A DNA stretch of 64,000 bases from Microbacterium hydrocarbonoxydans (GTDB taxonomy: Bacteria; Actinomycetota; Actinomycetes; Actinomycetales; Microbacteriaceae), in the NCBI RefSeq assembly GCF_000956475.1, contig NZ_JYJB01000009.1:310001-374000 (forward strand). Direction: 5' to 3'. The position numbers and the translations under genes are program-made. Below the pieces are notes generated by a model. That model searched no databases. It saw nothing but the letters and a program-made list of their open reading frames with translations, and had not been told where the DNA came from. Within the stretch, counting starts at the first letter, position 1, and each line of letters starts with the position of its first letter. Below are positions 2,401 through 63,835 of this stretch, piece after piece.

Positions 2401-3927
2401 ATGACTCTCTCCCCTCTTCGGATGCGCCTTCTGGTCGCCTCTCTGCTCACGGTCGGGCTGCTCGGCGCCCTCGACCACACCATCGTCTCGACCTCTCTCG
2501 CCACGATCGCGGGCGACCTCGGCGCGCTGGGACACCTCGGCTGGATCGTGGTCGGCTACACGCTTGCGAGCACCGTGCTGCTTCCGGTGCTGGGCAAGCT
2601 CGGCGACATCGTCGGCCCGCGCGGCGTCTTCCTCACGTCTCTCGCCGGGTTCCTGCTCGCCTCCCTCGCCTGCGGATTCGCGCAGGACATGACGACGCTG
2701 ATCGTGGCCAGGGTGCTGCAGGGCATGACCTCGGCGGGCCTGCAGCTCATGAGCCAGACCATCGTCGCGCACGTCACGACCCCGCGCGAGCGGCCGCGAC
2801 TCATGAGCATCATCGGCATCGCGTTCCCCGTCGCGATCCTCGTCGGCCCGGTCATCGGCGGACTCATCGCCGATTACTGGGGCTGGCCGTGGCTGTTCTG
2901 GATCAACCTGCCGTTCGGCCTTGCGGCGCTCGCGCTCGCGGCATTCGCGGTGCCGCCGATCGAGCATGCACCGCGAGGGCGGTTCGACTTCGCCGGATCC
3001 GTCTGCTTCACGGCGCTGCTCGTCGCACTCGTGCTCGCGGTCACCTGGGCGGGCGACGGCGCCGCCGGCGCGGCATCCGCCGTCTGCTTCGCCGTCGCCG
3101 CCATGGCGCTCGCCGCCTTCATCCTCGTCGAGCTGCGCGCGGCCGAGCCGATCCTGTCGCTGCGGATCCTCCGCGACCGCACGATCGCGACCGGGATCGC
3201 CCTGTCGGCCATCGTCGGCATGGGCCTGTTCGCTATCGTGGCGTATCTGCCGACTTACTTCCAGATGGCGTACCGCACGACCGCGACCGTGTCGGGACTG
3301 GTGCCGATCGCGACCGTGTTCGGGATGCTCGTCAGCAACCTGCTCACCGGGTTCCTGGTCGCGCGCTCCGGCCGGTACCGGCTCTACCCGATCGTCGGCT
3401 GCGCTCTCGCCGCCGGCGGGCTGCTCGTGATGGCTCTGCTGCCGCTCGGCCTGCCCCTGTGGGTGCCGATGGTCGTGATGGGGGTCGTCGGCGTCGGCAT
3501 CGGATCGTTCATGAACGTGATCGTCGCCGTGGTGCAGAGCGCGGCGCCCCGCGAGGATCTGGGCAGCGTCACGGCGGCGACGAACGTCGTCCGTCAGGTC
3601 GGCTCGACGCTGGGCACGGCGGTGGTCGGCGGCATCGTCGGCGCGGGGGTCGCCGCTCTGCTGCCTGTCGGCGTCGACGCCGGGAGCCTCACCCCGCACG
3701 CCGTCCACGGCGCGGACCCTGCACTGCAGGATGCCGTCGCTGCCGCGTATCACGAGGTGTTCGCGCCGATCTTCGTCGCCATCGCCGTGGTCTACGCGAT
3801 CGGGGTCGCGGTTGCGGTGCTGTTGCCGCACGGGCGGCTCGCCGACCACGCCGACGTCCGCGAGCGCGATGATCAGCGCGATGATCTCAGCGCGACGGCC
3901 GGAAGATCCGCATCGACCGGACGGTGA
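2401..3927 (+). CDS. MFS drug-efflux transporter, DHA2 (14-TM) type
   Basis: An integral membrane transporter of 508 residues, the size of the EmrB/QacA-like 14-helix drug:proton antiporters. Seen: the early segment LGALDHTIVSTSLATIAGDLG, which carries the motif D1 pattern of this group; GKLGDIVGPRG (motif A loop); ARVLQGM (motif B); and GPVIGGLIADYWGWPWLFWINLPFG (motif C, shown in part). The start at 2401 places the Met just before the first helix; an in-frame ATG at 2341 would add 20 basic residues that are not typical. No clear ribosome site precedes either. The 3' end overlaps the convergent YciI-like gene by 41 bases. The substrate is unknown. Confidence 0.9.
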   Translation: MTLSPLRMRLLVASLLTVGLLGALDHTIVSTSLATIAGDLGALGHLGWIVVGYTLASTVLLPVLGKLGDIVGPRGVFLTSLAGFLLASLACGFAQDMTTLIVARVLQGMTSAGLQLMSQTIVAHVTTPRERPRLMSIIGIAFPVAILVGPVIGGLIADYWGWPWLFWINLPFGLAALALAAFAVPPIEHAPRGRFDFAGSVCFTALLVALVLAVTWAGDGAAGAASAVCFAVAAMALAAFILVELRAAEPILSLRILRDRTIATGIALSAIVGMGLFAIVAYLPTYFQMAYRTTATVSGLVPIATVFGMLVSNLLTGFLVARSGRYRLYPIVGCALAAGGLLVMALLPLGLPLWVPMVVMGVVGVGIGSFMNVIVAVVQSAAPREDLGSVTAATNVVRQVGSTLGTAVVGGIVGAGVAALLPVGVDAGSLTPHAVHGADPALQDAVAAAYHEVFAPIFVAIAVVYAIGVAVAVLLPHGRLADHADVRERDDQRDDLSATAGRSASTGR

Positions 3928-46787: not shown

Positions 46788-46833
46788 TCGCGATGAGTCT
46801 GCTCGGGCGGGCGGTTCTTCGCCGACGCAAGTA

Positions 46834-46867
46834 AAGGGCCGGTCGGAGAGGCTTCCGACCGGCCCTT
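46834..46867. terminator. Intrinsic terminator after the TetR gene
   Basis: A perfect 14-bp stem (46834-46847 with 46854-46867) around a 6-base loop; A-run before and TT after. It lies 47 bases after the TetR stop. Confidence 0.9.
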
Positions 46868-47075
46868 GTCCCTTGCACCAAGAGTGTCCTGCAATCACAT
46901 GAGGTGGATGCCACAGCAAACATTCACCGTGCGATCACTCTATAACGGGGCGGTAACGAATGCAACGGTTTGGTCACGGAAATCTTCGAGATGCTCTGCT
47001 TTCGGCATGACGAATCTGCAGTGATCTGGCCGCCTCGAAGAACATCTGCGTCCGTGAGGGCGTGAGGTGTCGATG
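46868..47075. other. Gene-free gap, relatively AT-rich
   Basis: About 200 bases between the TetR terminator and the first ArsR gene. A TATAAC hexamer at 46941-46946 stands out, but I find no -35 at the right distance and no start codon with coding sequence behind it. Nothing else is supportable. Confidence 0.4.
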
Positions 47076-47426
47076 TCAGCGTGCCGTCTGATGGTGGTGA
47101 GGTGTCCCGATTGCGTGCTCGGCCTGCTTCAGTGCTTCATCGACGAGGTTGACGGCATGCTCGTCGACGAGCCGGTAGAAGACCCGGGTTCCTTCGTGGC
47201 GGGTGGTGACGATACGGGTGAGACGGAGCTTCGCGAGATGCTGGGACACGGCTGTGGGTGACTTCCCGATGGCGGCCGCGAGGTCGTTGACCGCCTGCTC
47301 GCCGTTACGGAGGGCGAGGATCAGCCGCACTCGGGTCGCGTCCGCGAGCATGCCGAACACCTCGACGGCGAGTTCGACGTAGCTGCTGTCGGGATGAGCG
47401 GCGCAGGTCTCGTCTGGTGTGTCCAT
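47076..47426 (-). CDS. ArsR/SmtB family metal-sensing repressor
   Basis: 116 residues. The winged helix (GKSPTAVSQHLAKLRLTRIVTTRHEGTRVFYRLVDEHAVNLV in part) is ArsR type. Possible metal ligands are CAAHPDSS near the N-terminus and the His-rich C-terminal tail AEHAIGTPHHHQ, an arrangement like nickel/cobalt sensors (NmtR, KmtR) rather than arsenic sensors, which need the ELCVCDL Cys pair. The start at 47426 has a GGGAGAA site. Divergent from a second, related ArsR gene; one of them may sense metal for the exporters that follow. Confidence 0.9.
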   Translation of the reverse strand: MDTPDETCAAHPDSSYVELAVEVFGMLADATRVRLILALRNGEQAVNDLAAAIGKSPTAVSQHLAKLRLTRIVTTRHEGTRVFYRLVDEHAVNLVDEALKQAEHAIGTPHHHQTAR

Positions 47427-47531
47427 GGTCTTATTCTCCCGTGACTCGTCCGGCACGTAGCGGACGGCAACACCGTCGACCTTTCCGGAGCCCGGTCCTC
47501 AGTCGCAAGTGCGCCCGCTGTCTGGTATGTA

Positions 47532-47557
47532 ATAATCTGCGTATGCATGCAGATAAT
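47532..47557. promoter_or_regulatory. ArsR operator over the start of the second arsR gene
   Basis: ATAATCTGC (47532-47540) and GCAGATAAT (47549-47557) form a 9-bp dyad with one mismatch, centred on the ATG at 47543. An AATAAT -10 overlaps its left arm and ends 6 bases before the ATG. AT-rich dyads of this form are typical SmtB/ArsR sites. Confidence 0.75.
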
Positions 47558-47920
47558 GAATGCACCTTCACGTCGGACAGTCACCTGGTGCAGGTGGCCG
47601 CCGAGATGTTCGCGATCCTGTCCGACCCCACGCGACTGCAGATCATCCTCGCGCTGCGGGATGACGAACTGTCGGTGAACCATCTTGCGGACATCGTCGA
47701 CAAGTCCCCGGCGTCGGTCTCCCAGCATCTGGCGCGGCTGCGACTGTCGAAGATGGTCGCCGCACGACAGGACGGCACTCGCGTGTTCTACCGGCTCGCG
47801 AATGAGCATGCCCGTCGTCTCGCCATCGATGCGATCTTCCAAGCCGAGCACAGCGTCGAGGCCAGGCCTGCACACCACCACGACTCCCACCTGTCACGAT
47901 CCCGAATGAGCACCTCATGA
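47543..47920 (+). CDS. ArsR/SmtB family metal-sensing repressor (second copy)
   Basis: 125 residues, close relative of the divergent gene at 47076. DKSPASVSQHLARLRLSKMVAARQDGTRVFYRLANEHARRL (in part) is the winged helix. Candidate ligands: MHADNEC at the N-terminus and AEHSVEARPAHHHDSH at the C-terminus, again like nickel/cobalt/zinc sensors. Its start lies within an operator dyad and the message is probably leaderless. The stop overlaps the MFS exporter start as ATGA, so it heads the metal-export operon and represses it. Confidence 0.9.
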   Translation: MHADNECTFTSDSHLVQVAAEMFAILSDPTRLQIILALRDDELSVNHLADIVDKSPASVSQHLARLRLSKMVAARQDGTRVFYRLANEHARRLAIDAIFQAEHSVEARPAHHHDSHLSRSRMSTS

Positions 47921-49161
47921 TCTCCGTCCTGCGCAACGCCGTGTATGCCAAGCTGTTCAGCGCCCAGGTGATCGCGCTCGTCGGCACCGGTCTGCTCACC
48001 GTCGCATTGGGCCTCCTCGCCTTCGACATCGCCGGTGGCGATGCGGGCATCGTCGTGGGCACCGCCCTGACGATCAAGATGGTCGCCTATGTCGCCGTTT
48101 CGCCCGTGATGGTCGCGATCACTGCCCGCATCCCTCGCAAGACCCTTCTCATCGCCGCGGATCTCACACGTGCGGTCGTCGCGGTCTCGCTTCTGTTCGT
48201 CACCGAGGCTTGGCAGATCTACCTGCTGATCTTCCTGCTGCAATCCGCGTCGGCAACGTTCACACCGACGTTCCAGGCCGTCATCCCGGAAGTCCTCCCG
48301 GATGAACGGGAGTACACGCGGGCGCTGTCGCTGTCCCGTCTCGCTTACGACCTGGAGTCGTTGGTGAGCCCGGTGCTCGCCGCAGCGCTGCTCACGGTGA
48401 TCAGCTACAACAACCTGTTCGTCGGGACCGTGGTCGGTTTCATCGGCTCCGCAGTCCTGGTCATCGCCACCCGGTTCCCCGCCATCCGTCCCGCGGCGCC
48501 GGTCCCGTTCTTCGACCGTCTCACCCGCGGCGCACGGGTCTTTCTGAAGACCGTGGAGTTGCGCAGCCTGTTGGCCATGAACCTCGTGGTCGCGACGGCG
48601 ACAGCGATGGTGATCGTGAACACCGTCGTCCTCGTGCAGGGAGATCTCGGCAGGCCGCAGAGCGACGTAGCCTTGCTGCTCGCCGCGTACGGGGCGGGGT
48701 CGATGATCATCGCACTGCTGTTGCCGACGGTCTTGGACCGGCTTCCGGATCGGCGAGTCATGCTCACTGGTTCTGCCGCTCTTCCAGCCGGCCTGCTCGG
48801 TGCGTTCGCCCTCACCGCCGCGCCAGTCGGACCTGCGACCTGGCCGTTGCTGATGGTCACCTGGCTGTTCCTGGGAGCGTCGAACTCGCTCATCCTCACC
48901 CCGTCGGCACGGCTGCTGCGCCGGGCATCCGATGAGGACAATCGGCCGGCGGTTTTCGCCGCGCAGTTCTCGCTCTCCCACGCGAGCTTCATGATCACCT
49001 ACCCCATCGCCGGCGTCGTCGGTGCGACCTGGGGCATGTGGGCGGCTGCCATGACACTTGCCGCGATCGGCGCGGTCGCTGCCGTCATCGCGACGTTCAC
49101 CTGGCGGCATGCCGACGCGCTCACTGCATCGCAGCCCGCCCCGGAAGGAGTCGGACGATGA
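47917..49161 (+). CDS. MFS transporter, probable metal exporter
   Basis: 414 residues with 12 predicted helices, of the enterobactin-exporter/NreB-like MFS group (PF05977/PF07690 type). LFSAQVIALVGTGLLTVALGLLAFDIAGG opens helix 1 (in part); ARIPRKTLLIAADLTRA is the motif A loop; QAVIPEVLPDEREYTRALSLSRL follows. Members of this group export nickel, siderophores or drugs; here the coupling to an ArsR sensor and the CDF gene points to divalent metal. ATGA overlaps at both ends. Confidence 0.88.
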   Translation: MISVLRNAVYAKLFSAQVIALVGTGLLTVALGLLAFDIAGGDAGIVVGTALTIKMVAYVAVSPVMVAITARIPRKTLLIAADLTRAVVAVSLLFVTEAWQIYLLIFLLQSASATFTPTFQAVIPEVLPDEREYTRALSLSRLAYDLESLVSPVLAAALLTVISYNNLFVGTVVGFIGSAVLVIATRFPAIRPAAPVPFFDRLTRGARVFLKTVELRSLLAMNLVVATATAMVIVNTVVLVQGDLGRPQSDVALLLAAYGAGSMIIALLLPTVLDRLPDRRVMLTGSAALPAGLLGAFALTAAPVGPATWPLLMVTWLFLGASNSLILTPSARLLRRASDEDNRPAVFAAQFSLSHASFMITYPIAGVVGATWGMWAAAMTLAAIGAVAAVIATFTWRHADALTASQPAPEGVGR

Positions 49162-49241
49162 TCTTTGCCCCACCGGATCCGACTCGCAGCCTCGATGCGC
49201 GGGGGTTGCCGGCCACCATCGTCGAAGGAATCACCTCATGA
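49158..49241 (+). CDS. 27-residue mini-ORF between the MFS and CDF genes
   Basis: Starts in an ATGA overlap with the MFS stop (49158) and ends in an ATGA overlap with the CDF start (49238), so ribosomes could pass through all three. It encodes MIFAPPDPTRSLDARG then LPATIVEGITS; no known motif, metal ligand or helix. The CDF gene has its own GAAGGA site within this ORF. It may be only a translational bridge, or a real small protein; frame continuity on both sides is the only evidence. Confidence 0.5.
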   Translation: MIFAPPDPTRSLDARGLPATIVEGITS

Positions 49242-50371
49242 GCACACACCAGGACCACGACCACGATGAGCACACCCGGCACGATCATGGAGCCTCGGAT
49301 CAGCATCAGCACGATCATCGGCACGACGATCGCGAGCAGAGCGCCGACCACGACCACCTCCACGACCACGGTCACGGCGATCACGGGCACTCGCATCCGA
49401 CCGGGATCAAGGGATTCTTCTACGGCTTGTTCGTCCCGCACTCGCACGACGCCGCCGACTCGATCGACGACGCGATGGAGGCGAGCAAGGAAGGGGTCCG
49501 CGCACTCGTCATCAGCCTCGTCCTCCTGCTGATCACCACGATCCTGCAGGCGATCGTCGTGGTGATCAGCGGTTCCGTCGCCCTGCTCGCAGACACCATC
49601 CACAACTTCTCGGATGCTCTCACCGCGATCCCGCTGTGGGTCGCGTTCGTCCTCGGCCGCCGCGCCGCAACGCGGCGGTATACCTTCGGCTTCAATCGTG
49701 CCGAGGATCTGGCCGGACTGTTCATCGTCGCCGTGGTCCTTCTCTCCGCGGTCGTCGCAGCCTGGCAGTCGATCGCTCGCATCTTCCATCCCCAGCCGCT
49801 CACGAACATCGGCTGGGTGATCGCTGCCGGCGTCATCGGATTCCTCGGCAACGAGGCGGTCGCGATCTACCGCATCCGCGTCGGACGGAGGATCGGCTCC
49901 GCCGCCCTCGTCGCCGACGGCGTGCACGCGCGTACAGACGGCTTCACGTCCCTTGCTGTCGTCTTCGGCGGTATCGGCGTGCTTCTCGGATTCCCGCTCG
50001 CGGACCCCATCGTCGGCCTGGTGATCTCCGTCGCGATCTTCGTCCTGCTCATCGGCACAGTCCGATCGATCGGCCGCCGACTCATGGACGGCATCGAGCC
50101 CGAGCTCGTCGACCGGGCCCGGCACGCCATCGAGCATGTCGAGGATGTGCAGGCGGTCGAGCAGCTCAGGCTGCGCTGGTCTGGCCACAGACTCGAGGGT
50201 GACGCACTCATCCGGGTCCCCGACGTCCCCCTCCGCGAAGCCGACGAGATCGCCGCTGCGGTCGAGAGGGCTGTGCGAGACCACATGCCCAACGTCGACG
50301 TCATGAACATCCGTGTCCGCGCAGCCGACACGGTTCTCCGTCGGACTGGCCATGGCGACACGGCGGGATGA
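49238..50371 (+). CDS. Cation diffusion facilitator with His-rich N-terminus
   Basis: 377 residues. The first 50 carry a His/Asp cluster (about 20 His, for example HDHDEHTRHDHG and HDHGHGDHGHSH) that likely binds metal. Six membrane helices follow, with the CDF zinc site pattern: SVALLADTIHNFSDALTAIP in helix 2 (HxxxD) and LVADGVHARTDGFTSL in helix 5 (HxxxD); then a cytoplasmic C-terminal domain. The HxxxD in both sites suits zinc, cobalt or nickel export in exchange for protons. Coupled by overlaps to the genes on both sides. Confidence 0.93.
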   Translation: MSTHQDHDHDEHTRHDHGASDQHQHDHRHDDREQSADHDHLHDHGHGDHGHSHPTGIKGFFYGLFVPHSHDAADSIDDAMEASKEGVRALVISLVLLLITTILQAIVVVISGSVALLADTIHNFSDALTAIPLWVAFVLGRRAATRRYTFGFNRAEDLAGLFIVAVVLLSAVVAAWQSIARIFHPQPLTNIGWVIAAGVIGFLGNEAVAIYRIRVGRRIGSAALVADGVHARTDGFTSLAVVFGGIGVLLGFPLADPIVGLVISVAIFVLLIGTVRSIGRRLMDGIEPELVDRARHAIEHVEDVQAVEQLRLRWSGHRLEGDALIRVPDVPLREADEIAAAVERAVRDHMPNVDVMNIRVRAADTVLRRTGHGDTAG

Positions 50372-51114
50372 CATCGATCTCGGTACTCTCGAATCATGCG
50401 GCGTGCGACGGGTTCGATGTGACCCTCCGAGACAGTGAGAGTGCCGACGCCATAAGGCTGAGAGACGATCACGCGCCGTCCCGTCGGATCTGTCTTCTCC
50501 GCGGCGCGACCGCCGCGGGCACGGCCACCTTCACGGCGCTGCTGTCGCACGTGGCGTCGGGAGGCGAGATGCCCGGATGGCTCGGTATCGTGCTGCCATT
50601 GCTCTTCGCGATCCTCGCCTGCATGTTCGTCGCCGGGCGGAGGCCGTCACTGCCGCGGCTCGTGCTCTCCGTGATCGTGAGCCAGTTCCTCTTTCACACT
50701 CTTTTCGGATTGGGAGCGGGCACCCAAGGCGCTGGCCTGACCCTCCACGCCGTCGGTCACCATGGCCAGTTCATCGTCGTTTCGTCGACGTCGGCGTCCC
50801 GTCCGCTGGCTCACACCGGGATCGACGTCACGATGTGGGCCGGGCATGCTGTCGCGGCGATCATCACGGTCTTCGCATTGCATTTCGGCGAGCGGATGCT
50901 TCTCCTGCTGAGGGGCATCGCCGAGCAGGTGCGCGCTTGGTGGGGGCGGCGTGTTCAGACGTGCCAGCATCCGTTGGCCTTCCTCGCGCTGCGCCCCATG
51001 CCCACAGACGGCATTCCGTCATCGACCGCTCTGCGTCTGCTCGCCGGATCATTGCTGCGTCGAGGGCCGCCGCCACATCGCCGCCCGCTTCTCAGTCACC
51101 TGACCATTTCCTGA
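50368..51114 (+). CDS. Hypothetical membrane protein in the metal operon
   Basis: 248 residues, not recognised. After about 45 polar residues come four or five membrane helices (LGIVLPLLFAILACMFVAG, LVLSVIVSQFLFHTLFGLG, MWAGHAVAAIITVFALHFG) and a long basic Pro-rich tail. His residues in HAVGHHGQ, MWAGHAVAA and LHFGE lie at or near membrane faces, as in small copper-handling membrane proteins found beside CopC; that comparison is inference. The start at 50368 overlaps the CDF stop by ATGA; a start further in, closer to the first helix, is possible. Confidence 0.7.
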   Translation: MTSISVLSNHAACDGFDVTLRDSESADAIRLRDDHAPSRRICLLRGATAAGTATFTALLSHVASGGEMPGWLGIVLPLLFAILACMFVAGRRPSLPRLVLSVIVSQFLFHTLFGLGAGTQGAGLTLHAVGHHGQFIVVSSTSASRPLAHTGIDVTMWAGHAVAAIITVFALHFGERMLLLLRGIAEQVRAWWGRRVQTCQHPLAFLALRPMPTDGIPSSTALRLLAGSLLRRGPPPHRRPLLSHLTIS

Positions 51115-51185
51115 GGTCGATCCCCGTTTCGGTGTGCGATCGGCCCCGCCGCGCCGCAGGCGCACCCGAACGAAGGATCATCACC

Positions 51186-51815
51186 ATGCCCACCCCGACC
51201 ACACGCGCCGGAGTTCTCACCGCGCTCAGTGCGCTTCTCGTCGTCCTCGCCGTCGGAGCCGGTGCCGAGCCCGCATCCGCCCACGAGACCCTCGTCTCCA
51301 GCACCCCGGCAGAAGGCGAACAGCTCACCGCCCCACCGGAGCAGATCACCCTCGTCTTCAGCGATTCCGTGCTCACGATGGGCGCCGAGGTCGTCCTGAA
51401 CGACGCCAGCGGACGCAACTGGGTCGACGGAGACGTGGCCATCAACGGCGCCACGGTCACTGCGACAGTGGCACCCGGCATGCCTGCAGGTGCTTACGAC
51501 ATCATCTGGAAGGTCGTCTCGGGCGACGGCCACCCCATCAGCGCACTCGTTCCGTTCAGCGTGCTCCAGGCAGCGCCCACGGCAGCGCCGACGGCCGTGC
51601 CGACATCGACGCCGACGGCCGCCCAGACCGCCGCACCGGTCGCGCCGACGGAGCGACCGGACAGCGGTGACGGCGAGGGCGACCCCTGGCCGATCGGCCC
51701 GGTCATCCTGTCCGCCATCGCCGTCGTCGCTGCGCTCGGCCTCGTGATTCTCCTCGTCGTCCGACGGCGCGGCGCCGGCGGTCGCGGAGCGGACACCGAC
51801 GCGGATTCGTTGTGA
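51186..51815 (+). CDS. CopC-domain protein, secreted and membrane-anchored
   Basis: 209 residues. A signal peptide ends at ASA-HETLVSSTP, so cleavage would leave the His that is the first Cu(II) ligand of CopC; the Asp and His of SGDGHPIS near residue 115 complete the usual site, with FSDSV and GAYDIIWKV strands between. A Pro/Thr/Ala-rich linker (residues 130-165) leads to a C-terminal membrane helix (GPVILSAIAVVAALGLVILLVV). It binds copper outside the membrane. GAAGGA ribosome site. No CopD domain is fused or adjacent. Confidence 0.93.
   Translation: MPTPTTRAGVLTALSALLVVLAVGAGAEPASAHETLVSSTPAEGEQLTAPPEQITLVFSDSVLTMGAEVVLNDASGRNWVDGDVAINGATVTATVAPGMPAGAYDIIWKVVSGDGHPISALVPFSVLQAAPTAAPTAVPTSTPTAAQTAAPVAPTERPDSGDGEGDPWPIGPVILSAIAVVAALGLVILLVVRRRGAGGRGADTDADSL

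Positions 51816-62002: not shown

Positions 62003-63835
<1,833 letters not shown>

Follow-up and report, generated by a model that had tools for sequence, protein, structure and literature searches.

Gene content and layout of the block

The window analysed here, a stretch of 64,000 nucleotides from the genome of Microbacterium hydrocarbonoxydans, contains a compact metal-resistance block at 47076-51815. We re-read its genes and coordinates from the sequence and typed them with Pfam and NCBIfam models (Table 1). Two sensor genes, arsR1 and arsR2, stand at the left end; arsR2 heads a chain consisting of an exporter of the major facilitator superfamily (MFS), a short open reading frame (the mini-ORF), a His-rich exporter of the cation diffusion facilitator (CDF) family and a membrane gene (mem), with copC beyond it. 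The original prediction for this block, made from the letters alone, had described four successive ATGA overlaps in the chain, a gap of 71 bases between mem and copC, and two related ArsR sensors. All of these are real: the 4-base overlaps lie at 47917, 49158, 49238 and 50368, the gap has the length given, and ArsR1 and ArsR2 are 50% identical, both scoring above the cut-offs of HTH_5 and NF033788 (ArsR/SmtB fold). Metal resistance with layered export is also well supported. The two arsR genes had been said to face each other, however, and this is wrong; they are divergent, back to back, 116 bases apart. We take the ATG at 47426 as the start of arsR1, with a GTG at 47456 as a possible alternative. 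Within its own genome, ArsR2 has ArsR1 as its sole close relative, and four other matches are weak (30-39%, partial).

Table 1. Features of the metal-resistance block, in window coordinates
Feature	Position	Strand	Basis
arsR1, KmtR-type ArsR/SmtB sensor	47076..47426	-	HTH_5, NF033788; ligand spacing with HH shifted by one residue
-10 element AATAAT, with TGT before it	47531..47536	+	spacing fits predicted start at A of arsR2 ATG
Predicted operator ATCTGC-GTATGCAT-GCAGAT	47535..47554	+	dyad axis within arsR2 start codon
arsR2, KmtR-type ArsR/SmtB sensor, heads the chain	47543..47920	+	HTH_5, NF033788, ligand spacing
MFS exporter, NreB/NrsD-like	47917..49161	+	MFS_1; best NCBIfam model TIGR00900, below cut-off
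Mini-ORF, 27 amino acids, probable scar of a deleted hisD	49158..49241	+	alignment with hisD start and region after hisD of Microbacterium sp. SA39
CDF exporter, His-rich N-terminus	49238..50371	+	Cation_efflux, ZT_dimer (dimerisation domain); TIGR01297 218 bits, above cut-off
mem, membrane gene of a CopC-linked family	50368..51114	+	no Pfam or NCBIfam match
copC, CopC-domain protein with C-terminal hydrophobic stretch (read from sequence)	51186..51815	+	PF04234 73 bits

A conserved palindrome on the arsR2 start codon

The arsR2 start codon is covered by a palindrome that we predict to be an operator. Over 45 arsR genes with starts set independently of the pattern, the consensus is ATCTGC-GTATGNNN-GCAGAT, with the dyad axis inside the ATG. 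Information at these 45 starts is at most 0.32 bit per base from -40 to -12 and rises to 1-2 bits at most positions between -11 and +12 (1.43 bits for A at -11, and 1.69 bits each for A at -8 and T at -7). Positions -8 and -7 belong to both the -10 element and the operator. The spacing of the -10 element fits a leaderless mRNA, that is, one whose transcript begins 0-3 bases before the start codon (PMC8022548), and from it we infer that transcription begins with the A of the ATG.

Of the 45 genes, 36 have an exact copy of the left arm, which falls outside the gene. In the right arm, codon 3 is GCA in 35/35 Ala codons and codon 4 is GAT in 39/41 Asp codons, compared with a background of 13% and 30%, respectively, in five stretches of the window. 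The site is present on the window and on 40 of 44 Microbacterium loci selected by similarity to ArsR2, and on 39 of the 45 arsR genes with pattern-free starts; the latter count misses L107, for which a later start had been chosen, and the MFS-linked gene of L093 has three mismatches. These two are the fair figures, as a further 49 loci were selected by the operator and a set of 90 aligned starts was gathered by the pattern, making conservation there partly a matter of construction.

In its own genome, the window site is the only copy with at most one mismatch to the 22-base form, and two chance-like sites appear at two mismatches. A scan of the genus gave 87 matches in 81 of 366 genomes (window included) and none with the reversed control, and all 49 newly fetched matches sit on arsR starts. 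Among 15 named plasmid loci, nine have the site at the arsR start with 0-2 mismatches (from Brevibacterium, Cnuibacter, Leifsonia, Rhodococcus, Cryobacterium, Dietzia, Arthrobacter (FB24) and Mycobacterium), three have it with three mismatches, two of these compensated, and three (L284, L285 and L286) have none there.

The two arms can change together. On two Arthrobacter plasmids they read ATCTTC/GAAGAT and the protein begins M-x-E-D, and in a Galactobacter metagenome-assembled genome they read GTGTGC/GCACAC and the protein begins MHAH. One-sided changes occur as well, such as GTAGAT. As the arm-change test also caught internal start codons, we used only its list of compensated arms. The motif is tied to the exporter by one class-level relative (L198), whose site covers the start codon of a CDF gene; no arsR was found in the preceding 1.5 kb.

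At the level of the phylum, a scan with up to two mismatches was noisy (96/396 genomes, with the reversed control matching in several genomes too), and we set most of its matches aside. Matches of the form ATCTGCGTCGGCATGCAGAT are repeated in many genera and can be read as the peptide ICVGMQI; they were set aside on that reading alone. Ten of 30 phylum-scan loci were examined, with the site on an ArsR start in seven, on a CDF start in one and on neither in two (L186 and L188). We claim no novelty for the operator, since Campbell et al. 2007 may describe a dyad for KmtR. Titles and abstract openings among the matches listed in our literature search held no description of a start-codon operator placement or of this gene set.

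Sensors, exporters and the metal

Campbell et al. 2007 reportedly identified His88, Glu101, His102, His110 and His111 as the ligands of KmtR. ArsR2 reproduces this spacing exactly, and ArsR1 has H-x12-EH and HH with the HH pair displaced by one residue. We looked for the pattern in 47 ArsRs (45 at the 44 protein-selected loci, plus the window's own two); H-x12-EH with HH close behind is found in 41, and 35 of these have the exact spacing. KmtR is a sensor of nickel (Ni) and cobalt (Co) that represses a CDF (PMC7055735, PMC7689651), and in Streptomyces mirabilis a kmtR-nreB pair, in which nreB is an MFS gene, raises tolerance to Ni and, slightly, to Co (PMC9195940). Given the ligand pattern and these described KmtR-CDF and KmtR-NreB pairings, Ni/Co is the best reading of the block's metal, though the metal-site residues of the CDF would fit zinc (Zn) too. 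The original prediction had considered several metals without choosing among them; its resistance part stands, and the vague multi-metal reading gives way to a specific prediction of Ni/Co.

We did not use an ArsR tree as proof, as it has few columns and many open forks; ArsR2 groups with mostly MFS-linked sensors (weak support, 83-87) and ArsR1 forms a long branch. Eight MFS genes on actinobacterial plasmids, each adjoining an ArsR gene, are 59-73% identical to that of the window. The CDF scores 40 bits with the DmeF equivalog NF033827, below the cut-off of 250.

The mini-ORF as a probable scar of hisD

The closest relative that we found is Microbacterium sp. SA39 (contig NZ_JXRU01000035), with arsR1 84%, arsR2 89%, MFS 87% and copC 62% identical. 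There, 4 kb of other genes separate arsR1 and arsR2, and the order after the MFS is an intact histidinol dehydrogenase gene (hisD, above the cut-offs of PF00815 and TIGR00069), an 11-codon ORF, a CDF relic, the tail of mem, and copC. The CDF relic consists of the His-rich start fused to the gene's own last codons, and only the tail of mem is left.

The start of the window's mini-ORF aligns with the first codons of the SA39 hisD (DPTRSLDARGLP vs DPTRSVDARGVP), and its end aligns with the 11-codon ORF just after that hisD, giving a composition of about 18 hisD codons joined to the 11-codon spacer ORF. GAAGGA, in its tail, probably serves the CDF gene as ribosome site. The hisD-like core was searched for in six frames of 197 sources with up to four changes in 12, and is clear only in SA39 (whose contig was present in two copies) and in the window, with five other matches being poor. 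The mini-ORF, which the original prediction had listed in the chain, is better read as a deletion scar, and probably one of a deleted hisD. The simplest history would start from an ancestor with the order arsR2-MFS-hisD-spacer-CDF-mem-copC, after which the two lineages lost different parts; the order of these losses is inferred.

hisD was not found in the window, and among 93 Microbacterium loci (the 44 protein-selected and the 49 operator-selected ones) it is found in one, SA39. The window's genome has one hisD match only (contig C10, 53% identity). Plasmid pFB104 of Arthrobacter sp. FB24 also has a hisD beside such genes, for which we considered a common origin with that of SA39. We rejected it, as a 10-row tree groups the FB24 gene with one from Tsukamurella instead of the SA39 gene. 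Being of another lineage, it suggests that clusters of this kind acquired hisD on two occasions, by recruitment that looks independent, although two cases make no rule. Two further plasmid hisD neighbourhoods contain no annotated metal-resistance genes.

Just outside the block, 153 bases of the window (46830-46982) are 94.8% identical to SA39, and most neighbouring matches are at 77-87%. This stretch has no Rfam match at gathering score and, by eye, begins in a GC-rich inverted repeat after a TetR gene.

Gene order in Microbacterium and beyond

The original prediction had proposed comparing gene order within Microbacterium and had not recognised the combination of genes in one chain as a described one. 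Across the 93 loci, arsR is followed by a CDF in 52 and by an MFS in 36, an MFS is divergent in two, and neither is present in three. The protein-selected loci contribute 25 CDF, 14 MFS, the two divergent MFS and the three with neither, and the operator-selected loci 27 CDF and 22 MFS. An intact chain with close homologues of the two exporters is seen in the window alone, and in none of the 93. The claim of an undescribed combination fits this sample of the genus; on the other side, arsR-CDF, arsR-MFS and mem-copC are each common, and pFB104 has most of the set. The window is thus a mosaic of common modules, in which known parts for Ni/Co resistance stand in a new arrangement.

Eight of the 93 loci have a distant CDF (34%) on the far side of the arsR-MFS pair. 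Looking outwards from the MFS, 80 named loci (flanks of up to 6 kb, some shorter) have no close CDF; a distant CDF follows the MFS in Corynebacterium hylobatis (L230, 30-35%) and likewise on a Corynebacterium comes plasmid (L281, 29-33%). The ArsR-CDF-MFS order of Rhodococcus pseudokoreensis was rejected as a second copy of the arrangement, because at E 0.01 its MFS does not match that of the window.

An arsR-MFS module with an identical ArsR protein is found in L081, L126, L135, L136, L147, L153, L161 and L162, with the same bases upstream of the operator wherever these were printed and with a distant CDF (34%) on the other side. To judge from this identity, these eight loci represent the recent spread of a mobile piece.

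The membrane protein and CopC

Relatives of mem occur in 112 of 119 Microbacterium genomes, and copC adjoins mem in 23 of 29 fetched loci (L037-L065); the mem-copC pair is a separate, near-core feature of the genus. It adjoins the arsR-MFS pair in L094 and L137, whereas copC adjoins arsR-MFS in L072 and, with the mem relic, in SA39. CopC itself, at 73 bits, is well above the PF04234 cut-off of 23.3, and reaches 61 bits with the equivalog NF033814, short of its cut-off of 95. Homologues of mem align mostly from about residue 36 of the window protein, and so the ATG at 50368 may yield an N-terminal extension, with a GTG at 50419 as the alternative start, although in the SA39 relic of mem a GTGA overlap occupies the corresponding position.

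His61, His110, His132, His160 and Glu175 are invariant in 24 aligned members of the mem family. A structure model of the protein (helical, mean pLDDT 67.8, pTM 0.44) was too weak for a fold search. In L072 (4668-6222, genome G078), the copC behind arsR-MFS (68% identical, partial) appears to be cut short, beside a gene that by eye resembles a transposase.

Interpretation

Our preferred reading, to which we give a probability of roughly 0.74, is that the block would be an efflux operon of the KmtR type, inducible by Ni(II)/Co(II), with an operator on the start codon, a coupled chain and the scar of a hisD. Without metal, ArsR2, and probably ArsR1 too, would occupy the palindrome, which overlaps the -10 element and includes the predicted transcription start and the arsR2 start codon, and so block the leaderless mRNA. 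Excess cytosolic Ni or Co would bind the His/Glu site of the last helix and C-terminal tail, the repressor would leave, and arsR2, MFS, CDF and mem would then be translated in a coupled manner by way of the ATGA overlaps. The NreB-like MFS and the CDF would export the metal. The mem/CopC pair may work on the outer side of the membrane, where it might handle copper or buffer metal. The lineage of the window would have lost hisD by a deletion that happened to preserve the chain of overlaps, leaving the mini-ORF.

Several points weigh against this reading. Four of the 44 protein-selected loci (L102, L103, L105 and L109) are without the operator, and arsR1 has no recognisable one at its own start or upstream, either in the window or in SA39. 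Six of the 47 ArsRs are without the EH pair, five of them with QH (L066, L068, L069, L072 and L083, all MFS-linked) and the sixth (L104) with its ligand region lost, and likeness to KmtR was judged from ligand spacing. Both metal-site helices of the window CDF, as read from the sequence, carry H-x3-D, a pattern typical of Zn carriers. TIGR00900 is the NCBIfam model that fits the MFS best, yet the score of 251 bits falls short of its cut-off (319.6), and the C-terminus of the MFS, again read from the sequence, is not His-rich, which is why we call it NreB-like and not NreB. NreB of pTOM9 does have a His-rich C-terminus, and the Ni role of a similar Arthrobacter MFS has been called uncertain with this feature wanting (PMC3534580). 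The S. mirabilis nreB promoter was active without KmtR too (PMC9195940).

The Zn motif in the CDF leads to a different proposal: a Zn/Cd/Co system in which the CDF and the ArsR pair handle Zn or cadmium (Cd) and the MFS is a broad H+ antiporter. This seems unlikely to us. Among solved relatives, SmtB is indeed the nearest to ArsR2 in sequence, and the general ArsR model that the sensors match names no metal, but their ligand pattern is of the KmtR type, they reach only 44-48 bits with the CmtR equivalog (cut-off 150), and the S. mirabilis kmtR-nreB pair acts on Ni/Co (PMC9195940).

The palindrome and the mini-ORF could each also be explained by protein function. If the palindrome reflected a constraint on an N-terminal metal ligand such as M-x-A-D, and no operator, then its left arm, outside the gene, should not be conserved, nor should GCA and GAT be so strongly preferred among synonymous codons; the arms can change together, even if one-sided changes exist, and the motif is found on a CDF start. 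M-x-A-D is conserved, and NmtR binds Ni through its N-terminal amine and His3 (PMC7055735), yet we regard this account as very improbable. We give slightly less credence still to a mini-ORF acting as a functional leader peptide or small metal-binding protein, an idea we dropped because its sequence matches the first hisD codons of SA39 and then the spacer ORF. The mini-ORF also contains no His or Cys, and among the 197 sources its core has a clear match in SA39 only; in favour of a peptide are the ATGA overlaps on both sides and the ribosome-site-like GAAGGA at its end.

The operator is searchable, and finds KmtR-type loci throughout Microbacterium and in other actinobacteria; if confirmed on the start codon, it would be a compact case of a DNA site setting the N-terminus of a protein. 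A scar between two related loci with opposite losses suggests that resistance chains can be pruned while translational coupling is kept, and the two cases of a neighbouring hisD hint that bacterial tolerance to Ni/Co may be linked to the supply of histidine. A joint claim, which we hold at a little under even odds, is that actinobacterial KmtR-type sensors share a rule, a start-codon dyad on a leaderless gene, by which the DNA site dictates the sensor's N-terminus and the two change together, and that Ni/Co operons have acquired hisD independently at least twice. In that case, hisD in these operons would let the cell respond to a rise in Ni or Co by making histidine, which binds Ni strongly.

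Other features of the window

Outside the block, the window contains a thiamine pyrophosphate (TPP) riboswitch at 62003-62110. ARAGORN reports a tRNA-Ala at 2916-3003 that Rfam does not list, and which is possibly false.

Comparison with known systems

Mycobacterial KmtR reportedly has the same ligand spacing and a dyad at its promoters. The mycobacterial KmtR-CDF system (Rv0827c / Rv2025c) resembles the block in having an ArsR-type Ni/Co sensor with a CDF target (PMC7055735, PMC7689651). In the window, by contrast, an MFS lies between sensor and CDF within a single chain, a second sensor and CopC genes are present, and the metal is a prediction. The rhizobial dmeRF operon for Ni/Co likewise combines a sensor with a CDF, but DmeR is of the CsoR/RcnR type, unlike ArsR (PMC7055735). 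On plasmid pI of S. mirabilis P16B-1, a KmtR-named ArsR lies beside an MFS of the TIGR00900 type, a likeness drawn from the description; nreB is apparently not in an operon there, and the parts of the text consulted mention neither CDF nor CopC (PMC9195940).

Most of the gene set is matched on pFB104 (NC_008539, at positions 88-95 kb), from a strain reported to be Ni-resistant (PMC3910542). It carries hisD, ArsR, CDF, MFS, ArsR and CopC on one strand, with the CDF 69%, the MFS 59% and CopC 34% identical to those of the window, and an ArsR operator with two mismatches. It differs in gene order, in having no match to mem at E 0.01 and in the lineage of its hisD. SA39, finally, shares arsR1, arsR2, MFS and copC with the window; it keeps hisD and has only relics of the CDF and mem, where the window keeps both of these genes and has only the probable scar of hisD.

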